Assembly: GCA_036365515.1 (NCBI GenBank)
Contig: CM070874.1
Location: 208,066,297-208,130,296 of the forward strand
Direction: 5' to 3'
Origin: Torymus aiolomorphi
Lineage: Eukaryota > Arthropoda > Insecta > Hymenoptera > Torymidae
DNA length: 64,000 nt
This document shows, one piece after another, positions 29,041 to 61,083 of this stretch (its first letter is position 1; each line of letters opens with the position of its first letter). The translations under genes and the position numbers were made by a program. Below the pieces are notes generated by a model, which saw only the letters and a list, made by a program, of their open reading frames with translations, did not search any database and was not told the origin of the DNA.

Positions 29041-29187
29041 ACGGATTGCATTTAGATTTCATATGGAAATCAGTCCCAAAACGCCCAGTGGATTTCCACA
29101 GAGAATTCCACGTAGATTCTCACATGGATTTCTATCATAAACGTTTACCGAGCAAAATTTCCATGTAGAAATCCAGGTAAATAGTAG
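29041..29187. repeat. Left remnant of the 107-bp minisatellite
   Basis: TTTCCATGTAGAAATCCAGG followed by TAAATAGTAG matches the repeating unit at 41081-43375 and stops exactly at the P-like element. The unit continues (GTGCTCCACATGG) right of 41087, so the two array parts were one before insertion. Confidence 0.85.
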
Positions 29188-29628
29188 CAGAGATGAATAG
29201 AGAGATTGCCAGCGCCCCGGAAAAAAGTGAGGCAGACTTCTGCGCGCGGCGCGCTGCTGCCTCTCGCGGCCAAAGTAGCGAAGCATGTCCACAATTTCGT
29301 GATTGGTCGTTGAGACGTGTACACGCGGCGCGGGGCGGGGCAAGCGGAAGACGACGGCTCGGCGGCTCAGTGCGCGCGCACCGGTCATGTGTATACACGA
29401 GCGACCCAGCGGCGTGCCCCGCGCTCGCCGTCTGTTTACTTCTCCCGCAACAATCCGACTTCGGCCGAGCGGCCTGACAACCGCCGCTCGGTCGTGCATT
29501 TGTATATTGTATACACGCAAATTAATGAAATTATAAACTTTAAACTGTAAAACTCAAATTCTAATTCACAACCTAAGCCGAAGGGGAGAAGATGAACATA
29601 AACGATTTCAGTGTTAGACATTGACATC

Positions 29629-29703
29629 GTAGCGGTAGCCGTGGTGGCTAAGGCGTGCGGCTAGTTTTGCCGTAATCTTTTGGATCCACGTTCAATCCCG
29701 ACT
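29629..29703 (+). ncRNA. tRNA-Ser-like pol III module in left TIR
   Basis: TAGCCGTGGTGGCTAAGGCG resembles the D-arm/A-box of class II tRNA-Ser (TGGCCGAGTGGTTAAGGCG), and GTTCAATCC at 29690-29698 fits a B box. GGCTAGTTTTGCC between them could form an anticodon-like stem-loop. The acceptor stem is not well formed, so it is not a functional tRNA gene. It is more likely a tRNA-derived SINE head or an internal pol III promoter. Confidence 0.55.
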
Positions 29704-30822
29704 CAATATATATTTTTTTTTTCTCGTGCATAATTTTTTCTATTACATTATTGTAACACAACATACAGAATTTTCACCTTTTTATCATTTAATTATCATT
29801 CTCTAGTAGAATTGATGTTTTAATTTATATTTTAAAGAATGAATAAATTAATTCACCAAGAGTAAACTCATTAAAAATATCGTTATATTTATTTTTTGCA
29901 ATAATATCCCTATCCAATTTATATGTAAAATGTAATCAATCACGGTCAAGATAAACTTTTTTAAGGATTAAGCAGGATAAAAAAAGTATCGTTGACCAAG
30001 CAAGTTCAATTTCAGAAATACATATTATATTCTCATTCCCATTCTCTAATCCCTATAAAATATACGTTATTTGTTCTAAAAGTAAGTTTCTATTAATATT
30101 ATTTATTAAGTGGTAATCAACAAGTAAGCATATAATATAAAAAGCATTTTTAATCGGCCGAAAATGCATAAAGGCTATTCTCAAAAAATGTGCATGTGCT
30201 TCAAATTGTTTTATTTAAGCCTCAAAGATAATCCTGCATAAGATTTGCATTCACATTTGGGACTTAATGAAAACACCATTTTCCTCTGAATTATAATCAA
30301 TAATAGTGTATAACATAAAAAAATGGTATTATATTATACACATTTTTTACTCTAGTAGAGTTGAAATTTAATAATTCGAAAAAATCATATTTTATTCAAT
30401 GTAACAACTCTTCTGTAAAATAAATAATTATGTACATGTTTTTACAGCGATTTCGTCATTTACTCGATTTTCCATACTCTATTTTTTAATCTATTTAAAA
30501 TATAAGTAATCGCCAAGACTTCTGACTTTTCCATATAAATTCTTCAAAATATTTAAATGTAAAAAGTTATTAAATGGCGTTAATCATATAAGAGAAGGCA
30601 AACTTTTTAACATTCTTTCGAAACATCTCTTATATTGACATTTTCGTACTTCTCAAAATAGTTGCAAACAATTTAGAAAATTCCGATAATCTCTTAAATA
30701 ATATCGTGCGAACCATTCAATATTTTTTGAAGCTGCGTTTCTTATTTTCAAAGCGATATTTTAGTAGAGAAATAATCAATCCAGCTGCATTAAAAGCTAA
30801 TAAATAATATTAGTTGAAATTT

Positions 30823-31015
30823 CAATTAATTACTCAGTTTAATTTAAAATTAAAATTTCAATCGTTATTTAAACCCCAGTTTAATTAATAACTAAAAATT
30901 CAATCGTTAACTATACCTGCGTTCAATTCAGAATTAAAATTTCAATCATTAATTAAACGAGCGTCTAATTAAGAATTAAAGTTTGAATCGTTTATTAAAC
31001 CAGTATTTAATTAAG
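30823..31015. repeat. 42-bp subterminal tandem repeats in left TIR
   Basis: AATTTCAATCGTTAATTAAAC-like units recur with CAATCGTT or variants at 30859, 30901, 30943 and 30985, i.e. every 42 bp. The mirrored block lies near 39253-39445. Subterminal tandem motifs in P and other cut-and-paste elements can be transposase-binding sites, but whether the THAP domain binds here is inference. Confidence 0.75.
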
Positions 31016-31648
31016 TTTCTTCGGACCTGATTCTGCAGTAAAAGCGTAGTCCTAAATTCAATTATTTAAGATACGAAAACGGTGAAACAAATCTCTAAAA
31101 GTAGACAGTAAAAGCTAAAATTTATGCCCTGATTCGTTACAAAATTTTGATTTTTCAGGAAGTTACAATCAATCAAAGATAGCGTAAGAAAATATTTAAA
31201 ATGCATGTTTAGTTTAACTGATTAAATGGATTGCATTTTTAGCTTTTTTTTTACTCGACGATCGTGACACATAGACGTAAATTCGTGTTTTCGGCCGTGA
31301 TTCTTTACAAGGACTTTACAATTACTGCTCGGGGATATCGCATTCGACTTCAAAATCCATTAAACGATTAAAATGAATTCTTAATTAAACGCTGCCTTAA
31401 TGAACGATTGAAATTTTAATTATTAATTAACCGATATGAACTTAATTAACGGCTTATTTAACAATTGAAATTTTTATTATTAATTAAACCCGGGGTTTTA
31501 TTAATAATTGAAATTTCAATTTTGAATTAATAATGGTATAATTTACAACCTCGGGCATTATATTATCTCGATCAGAATATTAGATTAGTCCAATTATTAT
31601 ATCCATCCATAATATTCTGCTTTAAAGTTTTTGGCTATCTTTTTTTCG

Positions 31649-32376
31649 TTGACAGCGAGTCGACAAGATTTTACATTGTAGAAAAAAAACTTTAGATTCA
31701 AGACTTTTAATGTATTTATTGTATTTTAAATAAAAAAATTTTTAAAAACCTTTTACAGATTATGATGTACGCGTATTAGCGTAATATTTTGCAGGGATGT
31801 TTTGAATATCATATGACAGTATTATTACGGTCACAAGAGTTTATACAATGTTATTTTCTATAATTTATCCGTTATTACAATTTTTGGTTATCATTTTTGC
31901 ACAGTCTAAAAAAATAACTTGCTACATCTTTTTCTGGACTTTAAACGGTCTGTGCTTTCTTGGAAATCCATCGCGCGCGCGCTCGCGAGCTACGGCGGCT
32001 CGGCATGAGCGCGCGCGTTTGTTGTTGTTACGTGTTTGGCGGGTTAAAGAGCTTGCGTTTGTTTTTATCCGGGCGCTCAGATGCGTGTCGCGTGAAAAAT
32101 TAGTCTTCAGAGTAGTGCAGTGATAGCGATATTTCTAGTGCGTGAGATAAGTAATCAAGTGTATGAAAGTGTCATTAGTGCGAATTTCATGTGCACTTTC
32201 TAAATATTGTGATAGTTTTTAGCTACCGCCGAAATGGTTAACTTTTTGTAGATTATCGATTGCGTTTGTTTTATTTATCATCCGAACTAAGCTATTGGAC
32301 GTACTCTTGTGCAGTGTTTATTATAATGTACGGTATTAATATACTTTTTTTAAAAGTGTGTGAAAGTGTTAAGACT
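31649..32376 (+). promoter_or_regulatory. THAP transposase upstream region and 5' UTR
   Basis: This unique sequence lies between the left TIR and the start codon. A CpG-rich island (CGCGCGCGCTCGCGAGC near 31972) is followed by GCGCTCAGATGCG (about 32072) and CTTCAGAGTAGTGCAGTGA, which resemble arthropod initiators. There is no strong TATA box. The island matches where the transposase promoter should be. An upstream Met at 31848 opens a 91-residue frame that ends before exon 1 and is probably fortuitous. Confidence 0.45.
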
Positions 32377-35300
32377 ATGGCGCAAAAGCAAGAGACGGTC
32401 TACGATCGATGCCAATACTTGCATTGCAACAATAGGAAATGTGATGGTCACCATTTGTTCCGATTCCCTGCTCAAAAGGAAAGGCAAAAACAATTACAGT
32501 GGATAGAACATTCAGGTTAGTGCAGTACTATTTTCTTGTTGGATAAATCTCATTTAGATAAATATATATATGACTTATATAAGATTTACTAAATAAAACA
32601 AAATCTATTTACTTAAATAAGAAAATATCATTTTAAGATAGTTGTATTGTAAATAATTATTTTGTAAGACTAATCTAGTACCTATAAATTTCGTTAATTA
32701 GATAGCTTCCATTTAATCCAAGAAATGTGCTTTATGAATAATTTTTAAAGCAATTAATTTTAATTAAGCGCATACTTTTTGCTTTATTTATTTTAATTTT
32801 GTGATTTTCTTTATAAATTGTAATAATTTTTTTACGCGTTCAATTTTGTGTAAGTTAGTAGATTTAGACTTCTTGCAGTTGTTTTTTCTAAACATTTTTA
32901 ATTAATTGAAACATATTAATAAACACCTGTATATCGTCGGTTGAGTGGAACAAGGTACCAACTCAGGCGAGCGCGTTAACAGGTACCAACTCGCACGGTA
33001 CGCTTTTTAATATCTTAGCGAGCTATTAAAGAGGCCAACAAATATTCCACAAAAAAACGATTAAAGTAGAAAAGGAGAAGTTTAATTTAAGATGAGAATC
33101 GTTTAAACCGTTCGATTCTGTGCAAAGTTACATGCATTTGAAAGTGCAAAGAATGACAAAAAATGAGCGATTTTTTCCCAAATCCACGTAATACTTTACA
33201 TGTTTATCATTTTCATATATTACATTCAAAATTAAACTTCTTCTCATTAATTTTAATTGCTTCTTTGTATTTTTTTTTTGCTTCTTCAATAGCTTGCTAA
33301 ACATTCAAAAGCCGACCGCGCGAGTTGATACCTTTTTACGCGCTCAAAGGAGTTTGTACCTTTTTACACGAACGCCCGAGTTGATACGTTTTCACGCGCT
33401 CGCCCGAGTAGGATCCTTTTTAAGCGCTTGCTCGAGCTAATACCTTGTTCCTCCCAACCGATGATATGTATACATCGCCACTTAAATATTCCTACATAAA
33501 TAAATTTTTATTTTCTCATTTTTATCCCAAATTAAAAATCATACTACATTTAAAAAATACTTTTAGTTATGGTTTTATTAACAAAATTTTAAAATTATTT
33601 CCTATACGTTAAATTGGTGGTATTAACCTTTATGAAACTGAAATTATTAATTCATTATATTAATTACATCGTCCAAAGAAATAAAAAATTTACGTCAAAA
33701 CAAACTTAAATCTTTTTAATTAAAACTTTTATAATAACAGAATTATATTAAAGGACCCCGCACACAATGTATAGGAAAAAATCATTTGGTCAAATTTTGG
33801 GGGGTTTTGCCCATGAGAACTTTTGTTCAGGACCTCAAGATCTATCTTTTCCCCAAGTTTGATCCAATTTGACCGAATGATTATTTTCCTATTTTCCATA
33901 CATTGTGTCCTTTCTTATTTAATTTCTTATTATTTTTTGTTATTTCAAAAAATATTTAAAGAGCTATACGGAATCAAGATATAATTGAAGAACGGTTTTC
34001 TTATTGGTTTATCAAGACAAAATAATAATGAAGGTTATAAATAAATACTTTTAAAAATAAATAAAGGTTTTTAATAAATGGTTTAAAAAATAATAAAAAT
34101 TTGAAATAATAGATATATCTTGTTCCCAAAAATTGATCAAATTAAATAAAATGATATAATGAAGTGTAAAAAATGTTAATGTAACTTTATTATACTTATA
34201 TTTTTCTAAGAATAAAAGAAAGTTCATTTTTACAATATATTTGATAAAAATAAACTAGTAATAAAAGAATATAAATTTTTCTGTTATCATTTTATTAGAA
34301 CATTTCGTCAATTTTTCCTTTTCTTTAAGCTTATAAATGAATGTATAACAAATACATTACAAACTCCATTAATATAAATCCATTTGAAAGCAAATCAATT
34401 CATTTTATTCTCAGTACTGTTAAGCACGAAAAATGTATTTTTTTTATAAAATATTGTTTTCTCCGAAACCAACCAACATAAAAAATAATAATTTCGATAA
34501 ATTACAAATTTATATATTATACATAAACCAAAAAATGTTATCCTGATATTATTTGTTTTTTATTTTAACGTATTATTAAAAGAGTGATTTTCCATAAGAA
34601 CTACGAAGAATAGCTAAAAAAATTTTTTGTTTTTTAAATGTTGAAAATTGAATCCTGCGTCGAGTGCATCATTAATATAAGTTTAACGTTAATTTCGAAG
34701 TCGCAAAAAATGAAAAATTTATTTATTAATTGTAACAAAATTATAGAAATAAAATTAGCTTCGAAAAGATAGAATCTTATATTTTTCTGAATATATTAAA
34801 TGAAATTATATTCACGTTACGATGTGGAGACATTATTTAAAAATAGCGTTTTTCGATTTTAATTGAATTGAAACCCACCATGTCTTTTATGGAACTTTTT
34901 TCTTTTTGCCACAAAGTTGCTGTAGTAAAATAACCATAAATGCTATTAATAGTCGAATAAAATAATTTACTTCAAGATAAATAACAAATTACTGCTAATA
35001 TTAGTTGAATAACTAAAAAAAATAATACGAAACTCTAAATCAATTTTAAATTTTCGCAGGAAACCAAGTACTTTTGAATTGGACGCCAGCTTCACTTAGG
35101 CGTGCAGGACTTTGTCGCCTCCACTTCAGCGAGGATGACGTGCTAGGGTCGACGAGTTTAAAGCGTGGCACAGTTCCCCTTCATTGGCAAAGACTTGAAA
35201 ATGCTAACAATGAACTGCCTGCGCAACTGCAAGCCCAGGTGCAGATGTGTGAAGAAGAAGCCGAAAATCAACAACAACCAAAACAACAAAGGCAACAACC

Positions 35301-37506
35301 ACATCAAGAACAACAACAACAACAACAAGGACAGCAACAACAGCAACCAGAACAACAAGACCAACAACAACAACAAGATCAACAACTAGAACAACAAAAA
35401 CAACAGGTAGCACAAGACATTGTTACTGAAACGACAGAAAAGTCCCAACCGGAAAAAGAAATTGATTTTGTAGGTGTGTTGAAAAGGTCATTGCCAGCTG
35501 TAACTTACCCCTCGGGTAAAGAAATTGTTTCTTTTTCTGAAAAAGATGATGACCTGTCGTTTCTGAATTACGAATCTCCTGTTAAAATTGTTAAAGTAAA
35601 CGTTAGCTCCACAACTGAGGACTCTGCTCCAATTGCTTCACCATTGAGAAAACGCGTTGTTGATACAATGGTTCGTAGTAAAGTTTATATTTGTAAATTA
35701 AAAAGTAAATTATTAGCTGCAGAATCAAAGGTTAAGCAGTTACAGAGATCCCTCAAAACTGAGAAAAATAAAAACAGTCGTTTGACTAGACGTTTACATC
35801 AAAAAGTGTCCAAAAAATTTTCTGATATTAATGATCTTTTAAAAGAAAAAAACATCCCTGATATGGCTAAGACGATGATGAAATTGCAATTGCACAAGCC
35901 CAACGCGCCATACACAACCGAAGAGAAAGACTTGGCAAAACAAATTTATTTTCATTCAGCAGCTTGCTATTCTCGATTAAGGGCGGGAGGGTTAGTTTTG
36001 CCAGCTGAATCAACGGTTAGATCGTGGGTGGCAGAATGTGAAATCGTCCCAGGGATCAATGACGCAATTTTGAAGAAGACAGGAGAATATTTGATGCTGC
36101 TTCCGCCACAAGAGCGACTGTGTGCGTTGAAATTTGATGAAATGTCCATCAGAGCAGCAGAAGAATATTCTAAGAAATATGATGTAATTGAAGGTCTGAT
36201 CGATATGGGAAAAGATCGCAGAGATTGTAAAGTCGCGAAACACGCGTTGCTATTTTGTATTGACAGCATAAATGCAAAAAATTCATGGCGTCAAATAGTA
36301 TCTTTCGGGTTTAACGATAATGGCGCCAGTGCAGAAGAGCTCTTTGAGATTGTTCCCCAAATCGTAACAGAACTTCGAAAAATAGGAGCAGATATTCGTG
36401 TGATTGTATGTGACCAAGGTAGCAACAATCAAAAGTTATTTAAATTATTGGATGTATGTCCAGAAAAGCCTTATTTTATTTTAGATTCTGTTAAGATTTT
36501 TGCAACTTTTGATTGGCCATACCTTATTAAGAGATTGATAGCACAGCTAAGAGCCCACGATTGCATTTATGTCGAAAACGAAAAAATTATTTCTTTTACC
36601 GATTTAAAGCAAACCTGGGAGCTTGACCGCTCTCATGGTACATCAAATTTATTAGGCTTTTTATCCGAAAATCACTTTAATCCTAATAGTTTTGATGCTA
36701 TGAAAGTAAAGCTTGCTTTTCAACTGTTAAGCCGTCGCATGGCCTGTGCAATTAAATTAGCCGGCGAAGACGTTTTATCAGGGTTGTCTTCGAATACATG
36801 GCAAAATTCAGCCAATTTCGTTGAAACAATGGATGCTCTCATCGATGCATGTAATGTATATAGTTTGAAAAATCGCCATGCATTGAAGCGACCATTATCT
36901 GACAGAAATTCAGAAATCCAGCAGCGACTTGAAAGTTTTATCGAGTGGTCAGAGAAATGGAATGTAAAGAAAAAAGGGAACGACAACAAGCCACCTTGTT
37001 TTTTGGGGTTACCTCTGACTGCTCGTGCTTTAGTAAGTCTGTATTTGGAAATAAAATCTTCATTCCCCGACTTTGAATTAGCAACAGGTCTGTGCAACCA
37101 AGATTCTGTGGAACATGCTCACTCCAAGTTGCGTGGCAGAGGTGGATTCAATCCGAATCCTACCTGTAGGATGTATCGTTTGACTCTTAGCCACATAATG
37201 TCAACCGATTTTATTCATACGAGTAAAAAAGGTAACCCAAGTTGCGAAGAGAGCCATTCGTTACTTCCTCAAAATGACGTTGAAAAAGAGACCACAGAGT
37301 TAGTTGCACTACCTGAATATAATTCCAAGGAAATGCAAGAGCTCCAAGAAATTACAGATGCTGCAGACGATTTACTGGATTTCCATCTAAAGTTACAGTC
37401 TTCTAACATGTCAGATATGGACACTAAATTTAGTTATGAACAAAAGGCTATAACATACTTTTCTGGTTATGTGGCGCGTAAATCATTAGAAAAAATCATT
37501 GTCTGA
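32377..37506 (+). CDS. THAP9/P-element-type transposase (two exons)
   Basis: Exon 1 is 32377-32515 and exon 2 is 35060-37506 (GT at 32516, AG at 35058-35059), with phase conserved across the THAP finger. The THAP C2CH zinc finger spans residues 1-88: Cys12, Cys17, Cys65, His68, with FP at 30-31, Trp42 and TVPLHW closing it. A Gln-rich tract (about 110-165) and a coiled-coil-like stretch (about 230-270) follow. The RNase H-like core has Asp406 in KFDEMSI, Asp498 in VCDQGSNN, and Asp728/Glu731 in NQDSVEHAHSKLRGRGG, the same D-x-x-E spacing as D528/E531 of the Drosophila P transposase. It would bind element ends and catalyse cut-and-paste transposition in the nucleus. The frame ends early at 37506, next to an A6 run; the family C-terminus continues in another frame downstream. 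Confidence 0.88.
32931..33467. mobile_element. Intronic MITE with internal AACTCGGGCGAGCGCG tandem motifs
   Basis: Inverted ends ATATCGTCGGTTGAGTGGAA (32931) and ATATCATCGGTTGGGAGGAA (other strand, 33467). Just inside, a unit of the form AAAAGGTACCAACTCGGGCG occurs about two times on the left and five on the right, varying in sequence, in opposite orientations. AT-rich middle. No ORF. The superfamily is not recognised. Confidence 0.7.
33754..33917. mobile_element. Short intronic MITE with ACACAATGTAT ends
   Basis: AAAGGACCCCGCACACAATG at the left mirrors AAAGGACACAATGTATGG on the other strand at the right. The inner parts also pair (TTTGGTCAAATT / TCGGTCAAATTGGATC). About 164 bp, no coding capacity. 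Flanks are AT-rich, so the target duplication is ambiguous. Confidence 0.65.
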
Positions 37507-37940
37507 CATGCGAAAAAGATTTAATGAAAGATGCATCAGAATCTGGAACCAGTAATGAAACATACATCAACTTGAGAGAGTACCCTCATTCTGATCCAGA
37601 AGTTTCATCAGTAATGTTCTTAGTCAGACCAACGGAATAGTTTGCAAAAGTAGTTAATTGTCAATTACAGGCCTTTGACAAAATTTATTTAAAATTTTGG
37701 CATGAGCATGATCTTTCACTTAAGTTAGCTGAAAATGTAGAAGCGTACACTTGTAAACAGTTCCCTGATTGGATTGATCAAGAGAATGTCTGTTATGAGC
37801 ACAGAGTACAAATGCTTAAATTTCTTTTGTTAGTTAAAATTTATGCGAAAACTAGGGAACGTAACAATAATAGGAAAACTGCGTCTAAAAGACCGATTGC
37901 GACAAAATGTAGAAAGCTGAAGATTGTTCAAAATGCATAA
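37507..37940 (+). pseudogene. C-terminal remainder of the THAP transposase, out of frame
   Basis: After the stop at 37506 the adjacent frame reads HCLTCEKDLMK (a C-x-x-C pair typical of the P/THAP9 C-terminus) through to a stop at 37938-37940. It has one internal TAG at 37638-37640 (after VRPTE). The frame change maps to an A6 run at 37490-37495: one extra A would bring this part into frame. Content is charged and Cys-containing (YTCKQFPDWI, CYEHRVQML). It is either a true pseudogenisation or, for the frameshift, a homopolymer miscall; the TAG would remain. Confidence 0.75.
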
Positions 37941-38619
37941 ATTTGGTAGTTACATTTTTTTGTAAATTATTGGAAAAAAATTGCTAAAACTTATAACTTC
38001 ACTTGTTTAAAAAATATTTTACGTGAATTTTTTAATTATTAAATCTAGAGCGTGCTTTTTCTAATGATAGTAACTGAGTTCCCGTTTTTTAATAACAATA
38101 ATAATAACATTGTAATATATGTTCTGATGTAAATACGTTGATCCTGTTCTAAATTATTAATATTTTGCGACTCAATTTTCCGTATTGTTTTGTAATTATA
38201 ATGTATAAAGTTTGTAAATAATATAATTGTTATCCTTTTCAGGATACTTTTCAGGTATATTATACTATAAAATTGATTAGAAAATAATATTATCAAGGTA
38301 AAATAGAATATTATAAGAAAATAAAAAATAATTTAGCATTCCTGTAGCTAATAAGGTATTATCGATTTCAGATAATTTTATTTTCAGATGGCGGGTGGTA
38401 TTGGTTGCCTTCCCGTTGGTGCCCCCCGAAAACAAATGGACTTATTGTAATTGATAAATGCAATACAATAAGTTCCTTTGGCCAAACAACCAATGAATTA
38501 CTTTTAAAATCATTCTGCTCAATGTAAAATGTTAATGAAATTTATCATTTATTTCATATAAAAATCTTTTTACATTTAAAATCTGATTTGTGAAAAGACA
38601 GATAAACAGAGCAACTAAA
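37941..38619. other. 3' flank of transposase gene inside the element
   Basis: AT-rich sequence with several AATAAA-like and TATAAA strings that could end the transcript, for example near 38328. CGGGTGGTATTGGTTGCC at 38393 is a short GC-richer patch. No ORF. Confidence 0.4.
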
Positions 38620-41080
38620 GATAGCCAAATACTTTAAAGCAGAAATAAAAAAGAAAAATGTAATTGGACTAATCTAATATTCTGATCGAGATAATATAAT
38701 ACCCGGGGTTGTAAATTATACCATTATTAATTCAAAATTGAAATTTCAATTATTAATAAAACCCCGGGTTTAATTAATAATAAAAATTTCAATTGTTAAA
38801 TAAGCCGTTAATTAAGTTCATATCGGTTAATTAATAATTAAAATTTCAATCGTTAATTAAGGCAGCGTTTAATTAAGAATTCATTTTAATCGTTTAATGG
38901 ACTTTGAAGTCGAATGCGATATCCCCGAGCAGTAATTGTAAAGTCCTTGTAAAGAATCACGGCCGAAAACACGAATTTACGTCTATGTGTCACGATCGTC
39001 GAGTAAAAAAAAAGCTAAAAATGCAATCCATTTAATCAGTTAAACTAAACATACATTATAAATATTTTCTTACGTTATCTTTGATTGATTGTAACTTCCT
39101 GGAAAATCAAAATTTTGTAACGAATCAGGGCTTAAATTTTAGCTTTTACTGTCTACTTTTAGAGATTTGTTTCACCGTTTTCGTTTCTTAAATAATTGAA
39201 TTTAGGACTACGCTTTTACTGCAGAATCAGGTCCGAAGAAACTTAATTAAATACTGGTTTAATAAACGATTCAAACTTTAATTCTTAATTAGACGCTCGT
39301 TTAATTAATGATTGAAATTTTAATTCTGAATTGAACGCAGGTATAGTTAACGATTGAATTTTTAGTTATTAATTAAACTGGGGTTTAAATAACGATTGAA
39401 ATTTTAATTTTAAATTAAACTGAGTAATTAATTGAAATTTCAACTAATATTATTCATTAGCTTTCAATGCAGCTGGATTGATTATTTCTCTACTAAAATA
39501 TCGCTTTGAAAATAAGAAACGCAGCTTCAAAAAATATTGAATGGTTCGCATGATATTATTTAAGAGATTATCGGAATTTTCTAAATTGTTTGCAACCATT
39601 TTGAGAAGTACGAAAATGTCAATATAAGAGATTTTTCGAAAGAATGTTAAAAAGTTTGCCTTCTCTTATATGATTAACGCCATTTAATAACTTTTTACAT
39701 TTAAATATTTTGAAGAATTTATATGGAAAAGTCAGAAATCTTGGCGATTACTTATATTTTAAATAGATTAAAAAATAGAGTATGGAAAACCGAGTAAATG
39801 ACGAAATCGCTGTAAAAACATGTACATAATTATTTATTTTACAGAAGAGTTGTTATATTGAATAAAATATGATTTTTTCGAATTATTAAATTTCAACTCT
39901 ACTAGAGTAAAAAATGTGTATAATATAATACCATTTTTTTATGTTATACACTATTATTGATTATAATTCAAAGGAAAATGGTGTTTTCATTAAGTCCCAA
40001 ATGTGAATGCAAATCTTATGCAGGATTATCTTTGAGGCTTAAATAAAACAATTTGAAGCACAAGCACATTTTTTGAGAATAGCCTTTATGCATTTTCGGC
40101 CGGTTAAAAATGCTTTTTATATTATATGCTTACTTGTTGATTACCACTTAATAAATAATATTAATAAAAACTTACTTTTAGAACAAATAACGTATGTTTT
40201 ATAGGGATTAGAGAATGGGAATGAGAATATAATATGTATTTCTGAAATTGAACTTCATTGGTCAACGATACTTTTTTATCCTGCTTAATCCTTAAAAAAG
40301 TTTATCTTGACTGTGATTGATTACATTTTAAATATAAATTGGATAGGGATATTATTGCAAAAAATAAATATAACGATATTTTTAATGAGTTTACTCTTGG
40401 TGAATTAATTTATTCAGAATATAAAATTTTCTTTAAAATATAAATTAAAACATCAATTCTACTAGAGAATGATAATTAAATGATAAAAAGGTGAAAATTC
40501 TGTATGTTCTGTTTGCAATAATGTAATGAAAAAAATTATGCACGAGAAAAAAAAATATATTGACTCGGGATTGAACGTGGATCCAAAAGATTACGGCAAA
40601 ACTAGCCGCACGCCTTAGCCACCACGGCTACCGCTACGATGTCAATGTCTAACACTGAAATCGTTTATGTTCATCTTCTCCCCTTCGGGCTTAGGTTGTG
40701 AATTAGAATTTGAGTTTTACAGTTGAAAGTTTATAATTTCATTAATTTGCGTGTATACAATATACAAATGCACGACCGAGCGGCGGTTCTCAGGCCGCTC
40801 GGCCGAAGTCGGATTGTTGCGGGAGAAGTAAACAGACGGCGAGCGCGGGGCGCGCCGCTGGGTCGCTCGTGTATACACATGACCGGTGCACGCGCACTGA
40901 GCCGCCGAGCCGTCGTCTCCCGCTTGCCACGCCCCGCGCCGCGTGTACACGTCTCAACGACCAATCACGAAATTGTGGACATGCTTCGCTACTTTCGCCG
41001 CGAGAGGCAGCAGCGCACCGCGCGCAGAAGTCTGCATTAACTTTTTTCCGGGGCGCTGGCAATCTCTCTATTCATCTCTG
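38620..41080 (-). repeat. Right terminal inverted repeat of the P-like element
   Basis: It is the inverted counterpart of 29188-31648, with the same modules in mirror order: a repeat cluster (38730-38890), 42-bp repeats (about 39253-39445), a tRNA-Ser-like module (40563-40637, minus strand) and a GC-rich outer block (40760-41060). It ends TTCATCTCTG at 41080, followed by ATAGTAG. Differences from the left arm are few and include a small deletion next to the outer GC block (GTGAGGCAGACT against the inverse of AGTCTGCATTAAC). Confidence 0.92.
40563..40637 (-). ncRNA. tRNA-Ser-like pol III module in right TIR
   Basis: This is the mirror copy of 29629-29703. On the minus strand the A-box-like GTGGTGGCTAAGGCG and B-box-like GTTCAATCC (complement of 40568-40576) are both kept, so any pol III activity would run inwards from both ends of the transposon. 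Confidence 0.5.
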
Positions 41081-43375
41081 ATAGTAGGTGCTCCACATGG
41101 ACTTATGTATGGATATAGATACTAATATTTGCCGAAGAAAATTCGTATGGATATTGATCAAAAATCACATGAAGAAATTCAAGTAAATAATAGATGGTTC
41201 ACATAGATTTCCATATGGATTTTTCTTCCACATGGATATCCGTATGGATTTTTCTCCCAACACTTGCCGAGCAAAACCCGTATAGATTTTCATAAAGATT
41301 TTCATGTAGAAAAGCAGGTAAGTAGTAGGTGCTCCACATGGATTTCAGTATGGATTTTTCAACCAACACTTCCCAAGCAAAATTCGTATGGATTCTCATA
41401 AAGATTTCCATGTAGAAATCCAGGTAAAGAGTAGGTGTTTTCACATAGGTTTTCGTATGGATTTTTTTACCAACGCATGCCGAGAAAAATCCGTATGGAT
41501 TTTCATAAAGATTTCCAAGTAGAAATCCAGCTAAAGAGACGGTTCTCCACATGGATTTCTGTATGGATATAGCTACTAACATTTGCCGAAGAAAATACGT
41601 ATGGAGATTCGTGAAGATTTCCATGTAGAAATCCCGGTAAAGAGTATGTGTTCCACATGTATTTCCGTATGGGTTTTTCTCCCAACACTTGCCGAACAAA
41701 ATGCGTATAGATTTTTATAAAGATTTCCGTGTAGAGATCTACCTAAAGAGTACGTATTTTACATAGATTTCCATATTGATATAGCTACTAACATTTGCCG
41801 AAGAAAATTCGTATGGATATTCGTGAAGATTTCCATGTAGAAATCCAGGTAAAGAGTAGGTGTCCCACATGGATTTCCGTATGGATTTCTCTTCCAACAC
41901 TTTCTGAGCAAAATCCGTATGGATTGTCATAAAGATTTCCATGTAGAAATCAAGGTAAAGAGTAGTAGTTCCACATGGATTTCCGTACGGATATAGCTAC
42001 TAACATTTGCCGAAGAAAATCCGTATGGATTTTCATAAAGACTTCCTTGTAGAAATCCAGGTAATGAGTAGGTGTTCCACATGGATTTCCGTATGGATTT
42101 TCCTACCAACACTAGCCGAACAAATCCATATGGATTTTTATAAAGATTTCCATGTAGACATCTACGTAAAGAGTACGTATTTTAAATAGGTTTCCATATT
42201 GATATAGCTACTAACATTTGCCGAAGAAAATTCGTATGGATATTCGGAAAGATTTCCATGTAGAAATCCAGGTAAAGAGTAGGTGTTCCACATGGATTTC
42301 CCTATGGATTATTCTTCCACATGGATTTCCGTATGGTTTTTTCTAGAAACCATTGCCGTGCAAAATCCGTATGGATTGAAATCCAGGTAAAGAGTAGGTG
42401 GTTCACATGGATTTCCGTATGGATATAGCTACTAACATTTGACAAAGAAAATTCGTATGGATATTCGTGAAGATTTCCATGTAGAAATCCAGGTAAAGAG
42501 TAGGTGTCCCACATGGATTTCCCTATGGATTTCTCTTCCAACACTTTCTGAGCAAAATCCGTATGGATTGTCATAAAGATTTCCATGTAGAAATCAAGGT
42601 AAAGAGTAGTAGTTCCACATGGATTTCCGTACTGATATAGCTACTAACATTTGCCGAAGAAAATCCGTATGGATTTTCATAAAGACTTCCTTGTAGAAAT
42701 CCAGGTAATGAGTAGGTGTTCCATATGGATGTCCGTATGGATTTTTCTACCAACACTAGCCGAACAAATCCATATGGATTTTTATAAAGATTTCCATGTA
42801 GACATCTAAGTAAAGAGTACGTATTTTACATAGGTTTCCATATTGATATAGCTACTAACATTTGCCGAAGAAAATTCGTATGGATATTCGGAAAGATTTC
42901 CATGTAGAAATCCAGGTAAAGAGTAGGTGTTCCACATGGATTTCCCTATGGATTATTCTTCCACATGGATTTCCGTATGGTTTTTTCTAGAAACCATTGC
43001 CGTGCAAAATCCGTATGGATTGAAATCCAGGTAAAGAGTAGGTGGTTCACATGGATTTCCGTATGGATATAGCTACTAACATTTGACAAAGAAAATTCGT
43101 ATGGATATTCGTGAAGATTTCCATGTAGAAATCCAGGTAAAGAGTAGGTGTCCCACATGGATTTCCGTATGGATTTCTCTTCCAACACTTTCTGAGCAAA
43201 ATCCGTATGGATTTTTATAAAGATTTCCATGTAGAAATCTACGTGAAGAGTACGTATTTTACATAGATTTCCATCTGGAAATAGCTACTAACATTTGCCG
43301 AAGAAAATTCGTATGGACATTCGTGAAGATTTCCATGTAGAAATCCAGGTAATGAGTAGGGGGTTCAGAGATATT
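41081..43375. repeat. 107-bp minisatellite with 644-bp higher-order repeat
   Basis: The basic unit of about 105-108 bp reads TTTCCATGTAGAAATCCAGG then TAAAGAGTAGGTGTTCCACATGG, then CCGTATGGATTTTTC and a variable CTAACATTTGCCGAAGAAAA. Variants are arranged in a higher-order unit of 644 bp (six monomers): ORF ends at 41942, 42586 and 43230 are each 644 apart, as are 42112 and 42756. Minus-strand ORFs rich in KSIRKSMW are by-products. The P-like element interrupts its left side. Confidence 0.9.
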
Positions 43376-59408: not shown

Positions 59409-61083
59409 ATGTCACATCAAAAATCAAAACGTCAAAAGCGATCTCACAATGACAATGTTGAGATCGAAGAAAGCGAAAATGGGGAGTATAATGCAATTTA
59501 TATTCCGGATATGAATGATTCTGGAGATTCTAGTTCGGATTCAGAGTTGGATGCTCAATCTGATGAAGAACTTTCATATCCAAATACCTTTGAAGGAATA
59601 TCTAATGTCTCATATCGTCAAGTATTAGATAGCTACACAGAAAATCAAACACAATTAGAACCAGAGCATACTTATCAATGGCTTGATGGAGAAAAAAAGT
59701 ATAATGAATCGTTTAAAAATGAGATTCTACTTTCTGATCGTACGAAAAAATGATACATAATTTATCTGCAGTAGAATTGTTTGAACTTTTTTTTTCCAAG
59801 GAAATAAAGAGTTATATTATTGAATGTACAGTTTTGAATGGTTACAACCTTACTGAAGATAAATTGGACATTTTTATAGGAATATTAGTGTTATCAACTT
59901 TTAATCAAAGAAAAACACAAAAAGACTATTGGTCCACAGATCCACTTCTTGCATGTCCAGCCGTTTCTTTAGCAATGAGTCGCACTACATTTATGAAAAT
60001 AAAAACAAAATTGAAGATGAATAAATCAGAAGATAAAAATGATAACGATAAAGCGTGGAAAGTTCGCAAAGTCCTTCAAATTTTCAGAAAAAATCTACAG
60101 CAATTTGGTTTTTTTCAACCGCACTATCCGTTGATGAGATGATGGTAAAATTTCATGGTCGTACAAATTTACAACAGTTCATGCAAAACAAACCTGACCG
60201 TTGGGGGATCAAAGAATGGGGAATTGCTAGTCCTGAAGGATATTTGTTCGACTGCGACATATATTGTGGAAAAGGTTCAAATATTTATAATTCTGGTGAA
60301 GCAGCTAAACTTACAAAATGTGCTTTAGGAAGTCGTGTAGTACTTTTGATGACTCAAAATTTACTATCGTCGGTTGTACCTAGAAAGTTGATTCAATATC
60401 ATTTATATTTCGATAATTATTTCACTAATCCTGACTTATTGGTTCATTTGAAAAAAATGGGATTGAAAGCTACGGGCACGGTACGGATAAATAGAGTGAA
60501 AGTGAAAAACTATGTCGATAAAAAAGCAGAAACAGGTACTTATTGTGTAAAGCTTGAAAAAAATTGTGGACTCAACTTTATTACAGTTATGGATTCAAAA
60601 TGTGTATCAGTGCTTTCAACAGCTGCAGGAGTTTCTCCTTCATTTGAAGTAAATCGATTTTCTTTTGCTGAGAAGAAAAAAATTGCCATATTATTTCCAC
60701 ATGCCTTCAAAATTTACAATATGTTTATGGGTGGTGTTGATTTACACGATTCGCATTGTAGTAATTTGATGTCATGCATAAGAGCCAAAAAATGGACTTG
60801 GCCCATCTTTATGAGATTCATTCAATCTTCGATGGCTAATGCAACCGTTCTTTGGAATTACATACATGAAAGAAAAATAGGTTCAAAACAACTCGCTATG
60901 GATATTGCAAAATATTACCTTGCAAAAGCAAAAGTAAGCAAATCACACACATCTGTAACTGTTAGTTCAAAAAAAATTGTCAAAATTTCAAACAGTGTGC
61001 TTCAAGAACAAAAAAAATGTGTAAAGACTGCAATGTCTATTCATGTTCCGTATGTTTTCCACTTTTACACCAATAAATTATAA
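59409..61083 (+). pseudogene. piggyBac transposase, frameshifted at homopolymers
   Basis: DDE transposase that excises the element precisely and reinserts at TTAA. An acidic, Ser/Asp-rich N-terminus (59409-59753) is followed by the core: Asp in LSVDEMMVKFHGR (codon 60133), Asp in YFDNYFTNPDLL (60412) and Asp in GGVDLHD (60739 and 60748), i.e. the family catalytic set. Frames change at three places: an A6 run at 59743-59748, a T7 run near 60110 and an A8 run at 61010-61017. Past the last run the alternative frame gives a Cys-rich tail (MCKDCNVYSCSVCF) like the family C-terminal zinc finger. One base added in each run would make the frames continuous. It may be a very young pseudogene or an intact gene with sequencing errors. 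Confidence 0.92.

Follow-up and report, generated by a model that had tools for sequence, protein, structure and literature searches.

The 64,000-nucleotide stretch of contig CM070874.1 from the hymenopteran Torymus aiolomorphi that was analysed here (the window) raises the question of what kind of mobile element fills its positions 29188-41080, where two inverted arms of about 2.4 kb enclose a transposase gene. The data presented here indicate that this 11,893-bp element is very probably one copy, now defective, of a multicopy family of P-superfamily DNA transposons that move by cut and paste, with a design and a target choice like those of Galileo. An initial annotation made from the sequence alone had described a P/THAP9-type transposon with full termini and a target duplication; that description was upheld, and the multicopy status of the element holds as well.

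Ends, copies and target sites

The annotated ends and the ATAGTAG duplication were found again at the same coordinates (Table 1). Long inverted arms had also been proposed, and when the arms were compared by BLAST, element bases 1-2455 paired with bases 11893-9430 at 97.0% identity over 2,471 columns, with arm cores of 2,409 and 2,420 bp and a longest ungapped block of 1,617 nt at 98% identity. From the outside in, the left arm consists of a GC-rich part, a tRNA-like unit, an AT-rich part and two opposed blocks of 42-bp repeats, and the right arm is the mirror of this layering; the tandem repeats that had been annotated in the arms were seen in both of them. The element was also said to restore the surrounding satellite unit exactly. 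When the flanks were joined and one duplication removed, they did align over the junction with the neighboring 106-bp satellite array at 13 places, each alignment having 1-10 gap positions and using 34 bp of the left and as much as 193 bp of the right flank. However, identity was only 75-81%, and because the satellite units differ among themselves "exact" is too strong a word.

The genome that was searched comprises 1,084,570,280 bases in 21 contigs. The outer 25-bp terminus, allowing up to 3 mismatches, matched it 502 times, and the reversed-pattern control gave 0 matches. If every end were paired, 502 ends would equal about 250 two-ended copies, which is an upper figure. Among 100 ends listed, all of them exact matches, there were 27 inward-facing neighbor pairs within 31 kb (spans between 3,662 and 30,008 bp with a median of 12,039 bp), and within that distance no neighboring ends faced outward or in the same direction. 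These 27 pairs and three further completed pairs gave 30 pairs for examination, the window copy included. Exact 7-bp duplications flanked 26 of the 30, three pairs had one mismatch, and in one pair 4 of the 7 bases differed; the first 21 pairs contributed 18 exact duplications and all three with one mismatch, and the later nine contributed 8 exact and the non-matching one. No exact 8-bp duplication was found in the 28 pairs tested for that length. The initial annotation would have fallen if no other locus shared these ends as termini, and the 502 matches and the 7-bp duplications at other copies speak against this.

The pair with non-matching flanks is the copy at C2:44784644-44795234 (ends L091 and L092), where GTAGCGC on one side faces ATAGTAT on the other. 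It is otherwise an internally altered element of the most frequent subfamily (subfamily A, see below), and its flanks are as expected from ectopic recombination.

Target preference was counted over 37 sites, after one site had been dropped from each of two pairs with an identical flank and with the later nine pairs excluded. T was present at position 2 in 33 of the 37 sites and A at position 6 in 30; both were present in 28, compared to a background of 10.6% (P = 2.5e-20), and the TANTA pattern fitted 10 sites, compared to a background of 0.85%. The preferred target is palindromic, roughly STANTAS. Among the sites, the L061 and L063 ends (C1:63.17 and C1:79.76 Mb) have an identical flank of 20 bp, which could reflect duplication of a segment or else a target that is repeated.

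An empty site was found for the copy at C1:8.29 Mb. Its joined flanks (query 1-393) align inside another copy (L031) at 97.0% identity over 394 columns with one gap, and a local alignment at the junction matches the first 70 of 73 bases without a gap. The stretch overlaps a LINE-like (long interspersed nuclear element) endonuclease reading frame (Pfam E 3.2e-4, under the curated cut-off). This match fits a precise 12,088-bp insertion with a 7-bp duplication. Two copies of subfamily C, L027/L028 (C1:146.06 Mb) and L031/L032 (C1:161.02 Mb), have flanks that are 97% identical on both sides, and from this sequence likeness it seems that the insertion site was itself duplicated, 15 Mb apart. Reading frames of other transposons lie in the interiors of both copies, among them that of a Mos1-type transposase in L031.

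Table 1. Positions in the window of the element, its parts and the adjoining sequence.
Feature	Position	Strand	Remark
Left target-site duplication	29181-29187	.	sequence ATAGTAG
Left inverted arm, core 2,409 bp	29188-31596	+	BLAST match continues to 31642
Outer 75 bp of element	29188-29262	+	majority bases same in subfamilies A and B
tRNA-like unit, left arm (element bases 435-521)	29622-29708	+	A-box-like, B-box-like, T run; resemblance only
42-bp tandem array, left arm	30835-31015	+	4.3 copies
Second block, related 42-bp repeats	31376-31536	-	inverted relative to first block
Predicted exon 1	32377-32515	+	first half of THAP domain; spliced THAP PF05485 E 9.4e-7
Predicted intron, 2,544 bp	32516-35059	+	conserved donor and acceptor
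Exon 2	35060-37506	+	THAP remainder, Q-rich linker, helical stretch, RNase H core with GTP-binding insertion; ends early here
C-terminal coding remnant	37485-37931	+	different frame, one stop (P0001 residues 583-730)
Right inverted arm, core 2,420 bp	38661-41080	-	BLAST match reaches 38617
42-bp tandem array, right arm	39242-39420	-	
tRNA-like unit, right-arm copy	40558-40644	-	98.9% identical
Right target-site duplication	41081-41087	.	sequence ATAGTAG
106-bp satellite array adjoining insertion	41226-43360	+	related sequence reaches junction

Transposase gene and its relatives

The proposed P/THAP9-type transposase was borne out by its domains, by its structural matches and by the spliced THAP domain. 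Exon 2 matches the TNP-like Pfam domains PF21787, PF21788 and PF21789, and a sequence search against the P transposase structure 6p5a in the Protein Data Bank gave E 2.5e-26. A predicted model of the protein had a mean predicted local distance difference test score of 64, with the core mostly at 70-95 and low values in the termini and the linker, and Foldseek matched this model to 6pe2 with E 8.8e-28; template modeling scores by target were 0.80-0.81 for 6pe2 and 6p5a. D230, D303 and E531, which we take to be the catalytic residue numbers of the P transposase, were all matched and correspond to D360, D452 and E685 of exon 2. Six of the eight GTP-contact residues given in PMC7776569 were also matched. 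The Pfam domains, the sequence match, the fold of the model and the catalytic residues all identify the predicted protein as a transposase of the P superfamily, and the element as a whole carries what characterizes that superfamily: an N-terminal THAP domain, an RNase H/GTP core, the D-D-E triad, and inverted repeats with a target duplication.

The THAP domain appears to be split by an intron of about 2.5 kb, as predicted from the sequence of the copies. Over the spliced exons the domain scores above the cut-off (PF05485, E 9.4e-7); exon 1 is present in all 13 transposase-bearing copies among the 15 whole copies, and both the donor GT and the acceptor are conserved in 12 of the 12 copies checked. 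The predicted intron also holds a 28-bp tandem repeat of 4.3 copies at 33317-33436. The gene of the window copy is defective: its frame ends early, and the C-terminal part lies in another frame with a stop.

Early protein searches returned 7 and 8 proteins, and our guess is that glutamine-rich words had filled the candidate list. A region-limited search found 31 proteins at E<=1e-5 among the 7,991 candidates scored. The named relatives came from Lasius niger (ant), Neodiprion pinetum (sawfly) and Callosobruchus chinensis (beetle, a weak match), those with high scores being from the ant and the sawfly, and an earlier, wider search had given a relative from Pectinophora gossypiella (moth). No named Galileo or 1360 transposase was among the proteins returned by these searches, and a scan of viral contigs matched 25 stretches, none of which was confirmed as a relative. 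A tree was built from 33 rows: 29 of the 37 database proteins (all except P0008, P0009, P0024, P0029, P0030, P0032, P0033 and P0034), three copies from the genome and one fragment of the Drosophila melanogaster P element, with no Galileo or 1360 row. The copies from the genome form a fully supported group with the database proteins P0001 and P0002, nested in a larger clade to which the ant and sawfly proteins also belong. The D. melanogaster P core is distant from them in this tree and has a long branch, so its placement is unsure.

Subfamilies and inverted arms

Ten of the 15 whole copies form subfamily A and share 97-98% identity across the greater part of their length. Subfamily B (three copies) differs from A more strongly in the outer arm, where identity is about 79-80%, than inside, where it is about 84-88%, and subfamily C consists of two copies without transposase. 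One of two short copies is a deleted A element and the other belongs to a fourth type that is mostly 88-92% identical to A in the arm. Unrelated interiors in five copies were considered and rejected, since a two-strand comparison shows that these copies carry the common interior in reverse orientation. The majority bases of A and B are identical over the outer 75 bp, and in the 25-bp bin that follows agreement drops to 0.48; between A and C, agreement in the first three bins is 1.00, 0.88 and 0.80. When one A copy was compared with one B copy, the 681 codons that run from the catalytic core through to the protein end gave a nonsynonymous rate (dN) of 0.063 and a synonymous rate (dS) of 0.283, and the 88 codons of the THAP domain gave 0.260 and 0.660. 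As dN is below dS, both proteins were formerly under constraint. The higher dS in the THAP domain could reflect past recombination between subfamilies or the noise of few codons.

A composite origin, in which the P-type transposase gene was acquired by a Foldback-like element or another element with long arms, would account for the layered arms with their GC-rich outer part, tRNA-like unit, AT-rich part and 42-bp arrays. However, transposase and arms travel together in three B copies and ten A copies, and the 7-bp target resembles that of Galileo, and this origin is considered improbable.

The two arms of one subfamily A element differ by 1.7-2.9% in all ten copies (mean 2.20%). Mean differences between different A elements are 1.72% and 1.95% for arms of the same side and 2.45% for arms of opposite sides. 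The 20 A arms contain 270 private and 79 shared, informative variable sites. Twelve sites are side-specific, one of them inside the arm and eleven at or past its end, so the within-element and opposite-side differences are slightly inflated. Of 47 doubleton variants, 20 are common to both arms of one element, compared to 2.5 expected. This pattern fits a burst of copies with little later change, plus exchange between arms; that such exchange keeps the arms near-identical is supported statistically, the step itself not having been observed. These figures also bear on an assembly inversion, which had been named as something that could overturn the annotation. Long, near-identical inverted repeats can misassemble, as is generally known, and an inverted duplication made after insertion is a related alternative. 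An artefact or later duplication of this kind is nevertheless extremely improbable, because the arms differ in 10 of 10 A copies with both private and shared variation, and they recur at different sites with different duplications.

The tRNA-like module of the annotation fared less well. A resemblance is present in both arms, with parts that we take to be an A box and a B box, but it has no tRNA score: ARAGORN found no tRNA in the window, nor in the left arm at standard or -ps85 settings, and Rfam gave none at E<=1. The loosest ARAGORN setting (-ps70) produced 10 candidates in the left arm; among those listed, two with long introns of 120 and 319 bases overlap the unit, and these two are not credible. 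In view of the blank ARAGORN (standard and -ps85) and Rfam results, a working tRNA or a dispersed SINE (short interspersed nuclear element) was rejected as unproven. The unit had 56 matches in the 73 sequences examined. The window holds only its two arm copies and the other matches fall in loci fetched for element ends, with 15 of the 16 loci L001-L016 having one and L009 none. Its conservation between subfamilies is no higher than that of the surrounding sequence.

The outer 450 bp of two A arms contain 4 clusters each of a GTGTAYAC-type motif, compared to 0.13-0.14 in shuffles. Enrichment was weaker elsewhere, with counts of 1 (a level reached in 19 of 300 shuffles) and 3 in B, 2 in C and 2 in the fourth type. 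The motif was chosen after inspection, with the P-element site as a guide, and it is a lead only as a candidate THAP site. Near-palindromes of this type lie at 29317-29324, 29389-29398 and 29508-29516.

Taken together, these data are consistent with a mechanism in which the THAP domain would bind sites within the arms, the GTP-dependent catalytic core would cut at CAGAGATG ends, insertion would proceed through a 7-bp stagger, and the 2.4-kb arms would be kept near-identical by sequence exchange between them. As the copies show low divergence, the family is judged from sequence to have probably been mobile recently.

Several points weigh against this interpretation. No copy was seen to move, and the THAP binding sites in the arms are putative only. 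The main exon is interrupted or partial in 11 of the 13 transposase-bearing copies, including that of the window; of the two with an uninterrupted exon 2, one would read a stop at the predicted splice junction, and the D(2)H motif of the window copy has Tyr in place of the His of P0001 and two other copies. Choosing pairs by a perfect outer 25 bp (27 pairs) or a highly identical outer 200 bp (three pairs) favors well-preserved ends, and one of the 30 pairs has non-matching flanks. The target motif was weaker in the nine later pairs (T2 in 8, A6 in 6, both in 5 and TANTA in 1), and the empty-site comparison of the window copy rests on 34 bp of left flank in a diverged satellite.

Other mobile elements surround the element in the window (1-24000 and 60052-61083). 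These neighbors are a gag-bearing long terminal repeat element, a copia-type element, an endonuclease-bearing LINE, Pao/BEL-type elements and a DDE_Tnp_1_7 (piggyBac-like) transposase.

Comparison with Galileo and other P-superfamily elements

The closest described parallel is Galileo, a P-superfamily element with internally repeated arms and 7-bp duplications (PMC4168063, PMC3573991, PMC3688188) whose target consensus is GTANTAC (PMC4168063). Its arms of 0.3-1.2 kb were called the longest of the superfamily (PMC3573991); in D. willistoni, arms reach 1.6 kb in a single copy whose transposase is partial, and 4.2-4.7 kb in one copy without transposase (PMC4168063). A search of titles and abstracts for other long-arm P elements surfaced Galileo alone, with Repbase and most subscription journals outside its scope. 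The element and Galileo have in common a P-type transposase with a THAP domain, long arms with internal tandem repeats, several subfamilies per genome, many non-autonomous copies and occasional non-matching flanks (PMC4168063, PMC3573991, PMC2775673). Both have a 7-bp duplication, STANTAS being a looser form of GTANTAC. Galileo subfamilies have a terminal sequence of about 40-50 bp in common. The THAP domain of Galileo has a binding site some 70 bp inward of the end and two more within the arm repeats (PMC3688188).

The differences are also clear. The 2.4-kb arms are found on transposase-bearing copies and are about twice as long as the 0.3-1.2 kb of Galileo (PMC3573991), the element is about 12 kb long compared to 4.4 kb for a nearly complete D. 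willistoni Galileo (PMC4168063), and each arm carries a tRNA-like unit. The THAP exon is split by a predicted intron in all 12 copies checked, whereas Galileo is reported to be intronless (PMC10990002), and the Galileo descriptions concern drosophilids (PMC4168063, PMC3573991, PMC3688188). The initial annotation had regarded the family as unusual for its superfamily and perhaps undescribed. This claim loses some of its force because Galileo is already long-armed, but what remains unusual is how long the arms are on copies that carry a transposase, together with the divided THAP exon and perhaps the host.

How this resemblance arose can be weighed with the same evidence. The kilobase arms with internal repeats, the 7-bp duplications and the similar target motif (PMC4168063, PMC3573991, PMC3688188) would follow if the element were a true Galileo that reached another host or had a common ancestor with it. 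That is rather unlikely given the predicted intron, with Galileo reported as intronless (PMC10990002), and the high-scoring named relatives from ant and sawfly. Independent origin of the long arms and the 7-bp target within the P superfamily is a stronger candidate, with a chance just short of even. It agrees with the split THAP exon, the very long arms and the distant D. melanogaster P core, though that core sits on a long branch; the likeness of STANTAS to GTANTAC and the 7-bp spacing point instead to a common property of the transposases.

A broader view, offered tentatively since it is somewhat unlikely as a whole, is that long arms and a 7-bp STANTAS target mark an ancient P branch across drosophilids and other insects. 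The arms would then be active machinery, kept identical by exchange, with the outer 75 bp fixed and the THAP domain and inner arms co-diverging between subfamilies. If this is true, chromosomes far outside Drosophila could be remodeled by families of this kind. The long arms of Galileo have been linked to natural chromosomal inversions (PMC2775673), with exchanged duplications marking Galileo-made inversions in D. buzzatii (PMC2775673), and one of the 30 pairs here already has non-matching flanks, as ectopic recombination predicts. The purpose of kilobase P-type arms is unsettled; their functionality has been called uncertain, and a consensus Galileo transposase gave no transposition (PMC3688188). 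With its many copies of low divergence, this further long-armed P family offers a natural comparison for finding which arm parts the transposase needs, particularly as A and B agree in their outer 75 bp but differ in the THAP domain and the inner arms.

Other members of the superfamily are more distant in structure. The D. melanogaster P element and Anopheles P elements resemble the element in domain content, catalytic triad, GTP-binding insertion and THAP domain. However, they have 27-31-bp repeats and 8-bp duplications (PMC1562414, PMC7776569), so that with its 7-bp duplications and 2.4-kb arms the element departs from the P element proper, with its 8-bp duplication and repeats of about 31 bp. 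THAP9 and the zebrafish P-like element belong to the same superfamily and have a THAP domain, and the zebrafish element differs in its 13-bp repeats and 8-bp duplications (PMC7776569). Drosophila 1360, Hoppel and ProtoP are in the P superfamily too. The 1360 terminus presumably starts with CAGAGA, like that of the element, and to our knowledge kilobase arms have not been described for this group. Because the predicted intron differs and the rows of the tree do not include Galileo, the element is, judging from its sequence, best classed as a P transposon of a new, Galileo-like type and not as Galileo itself.

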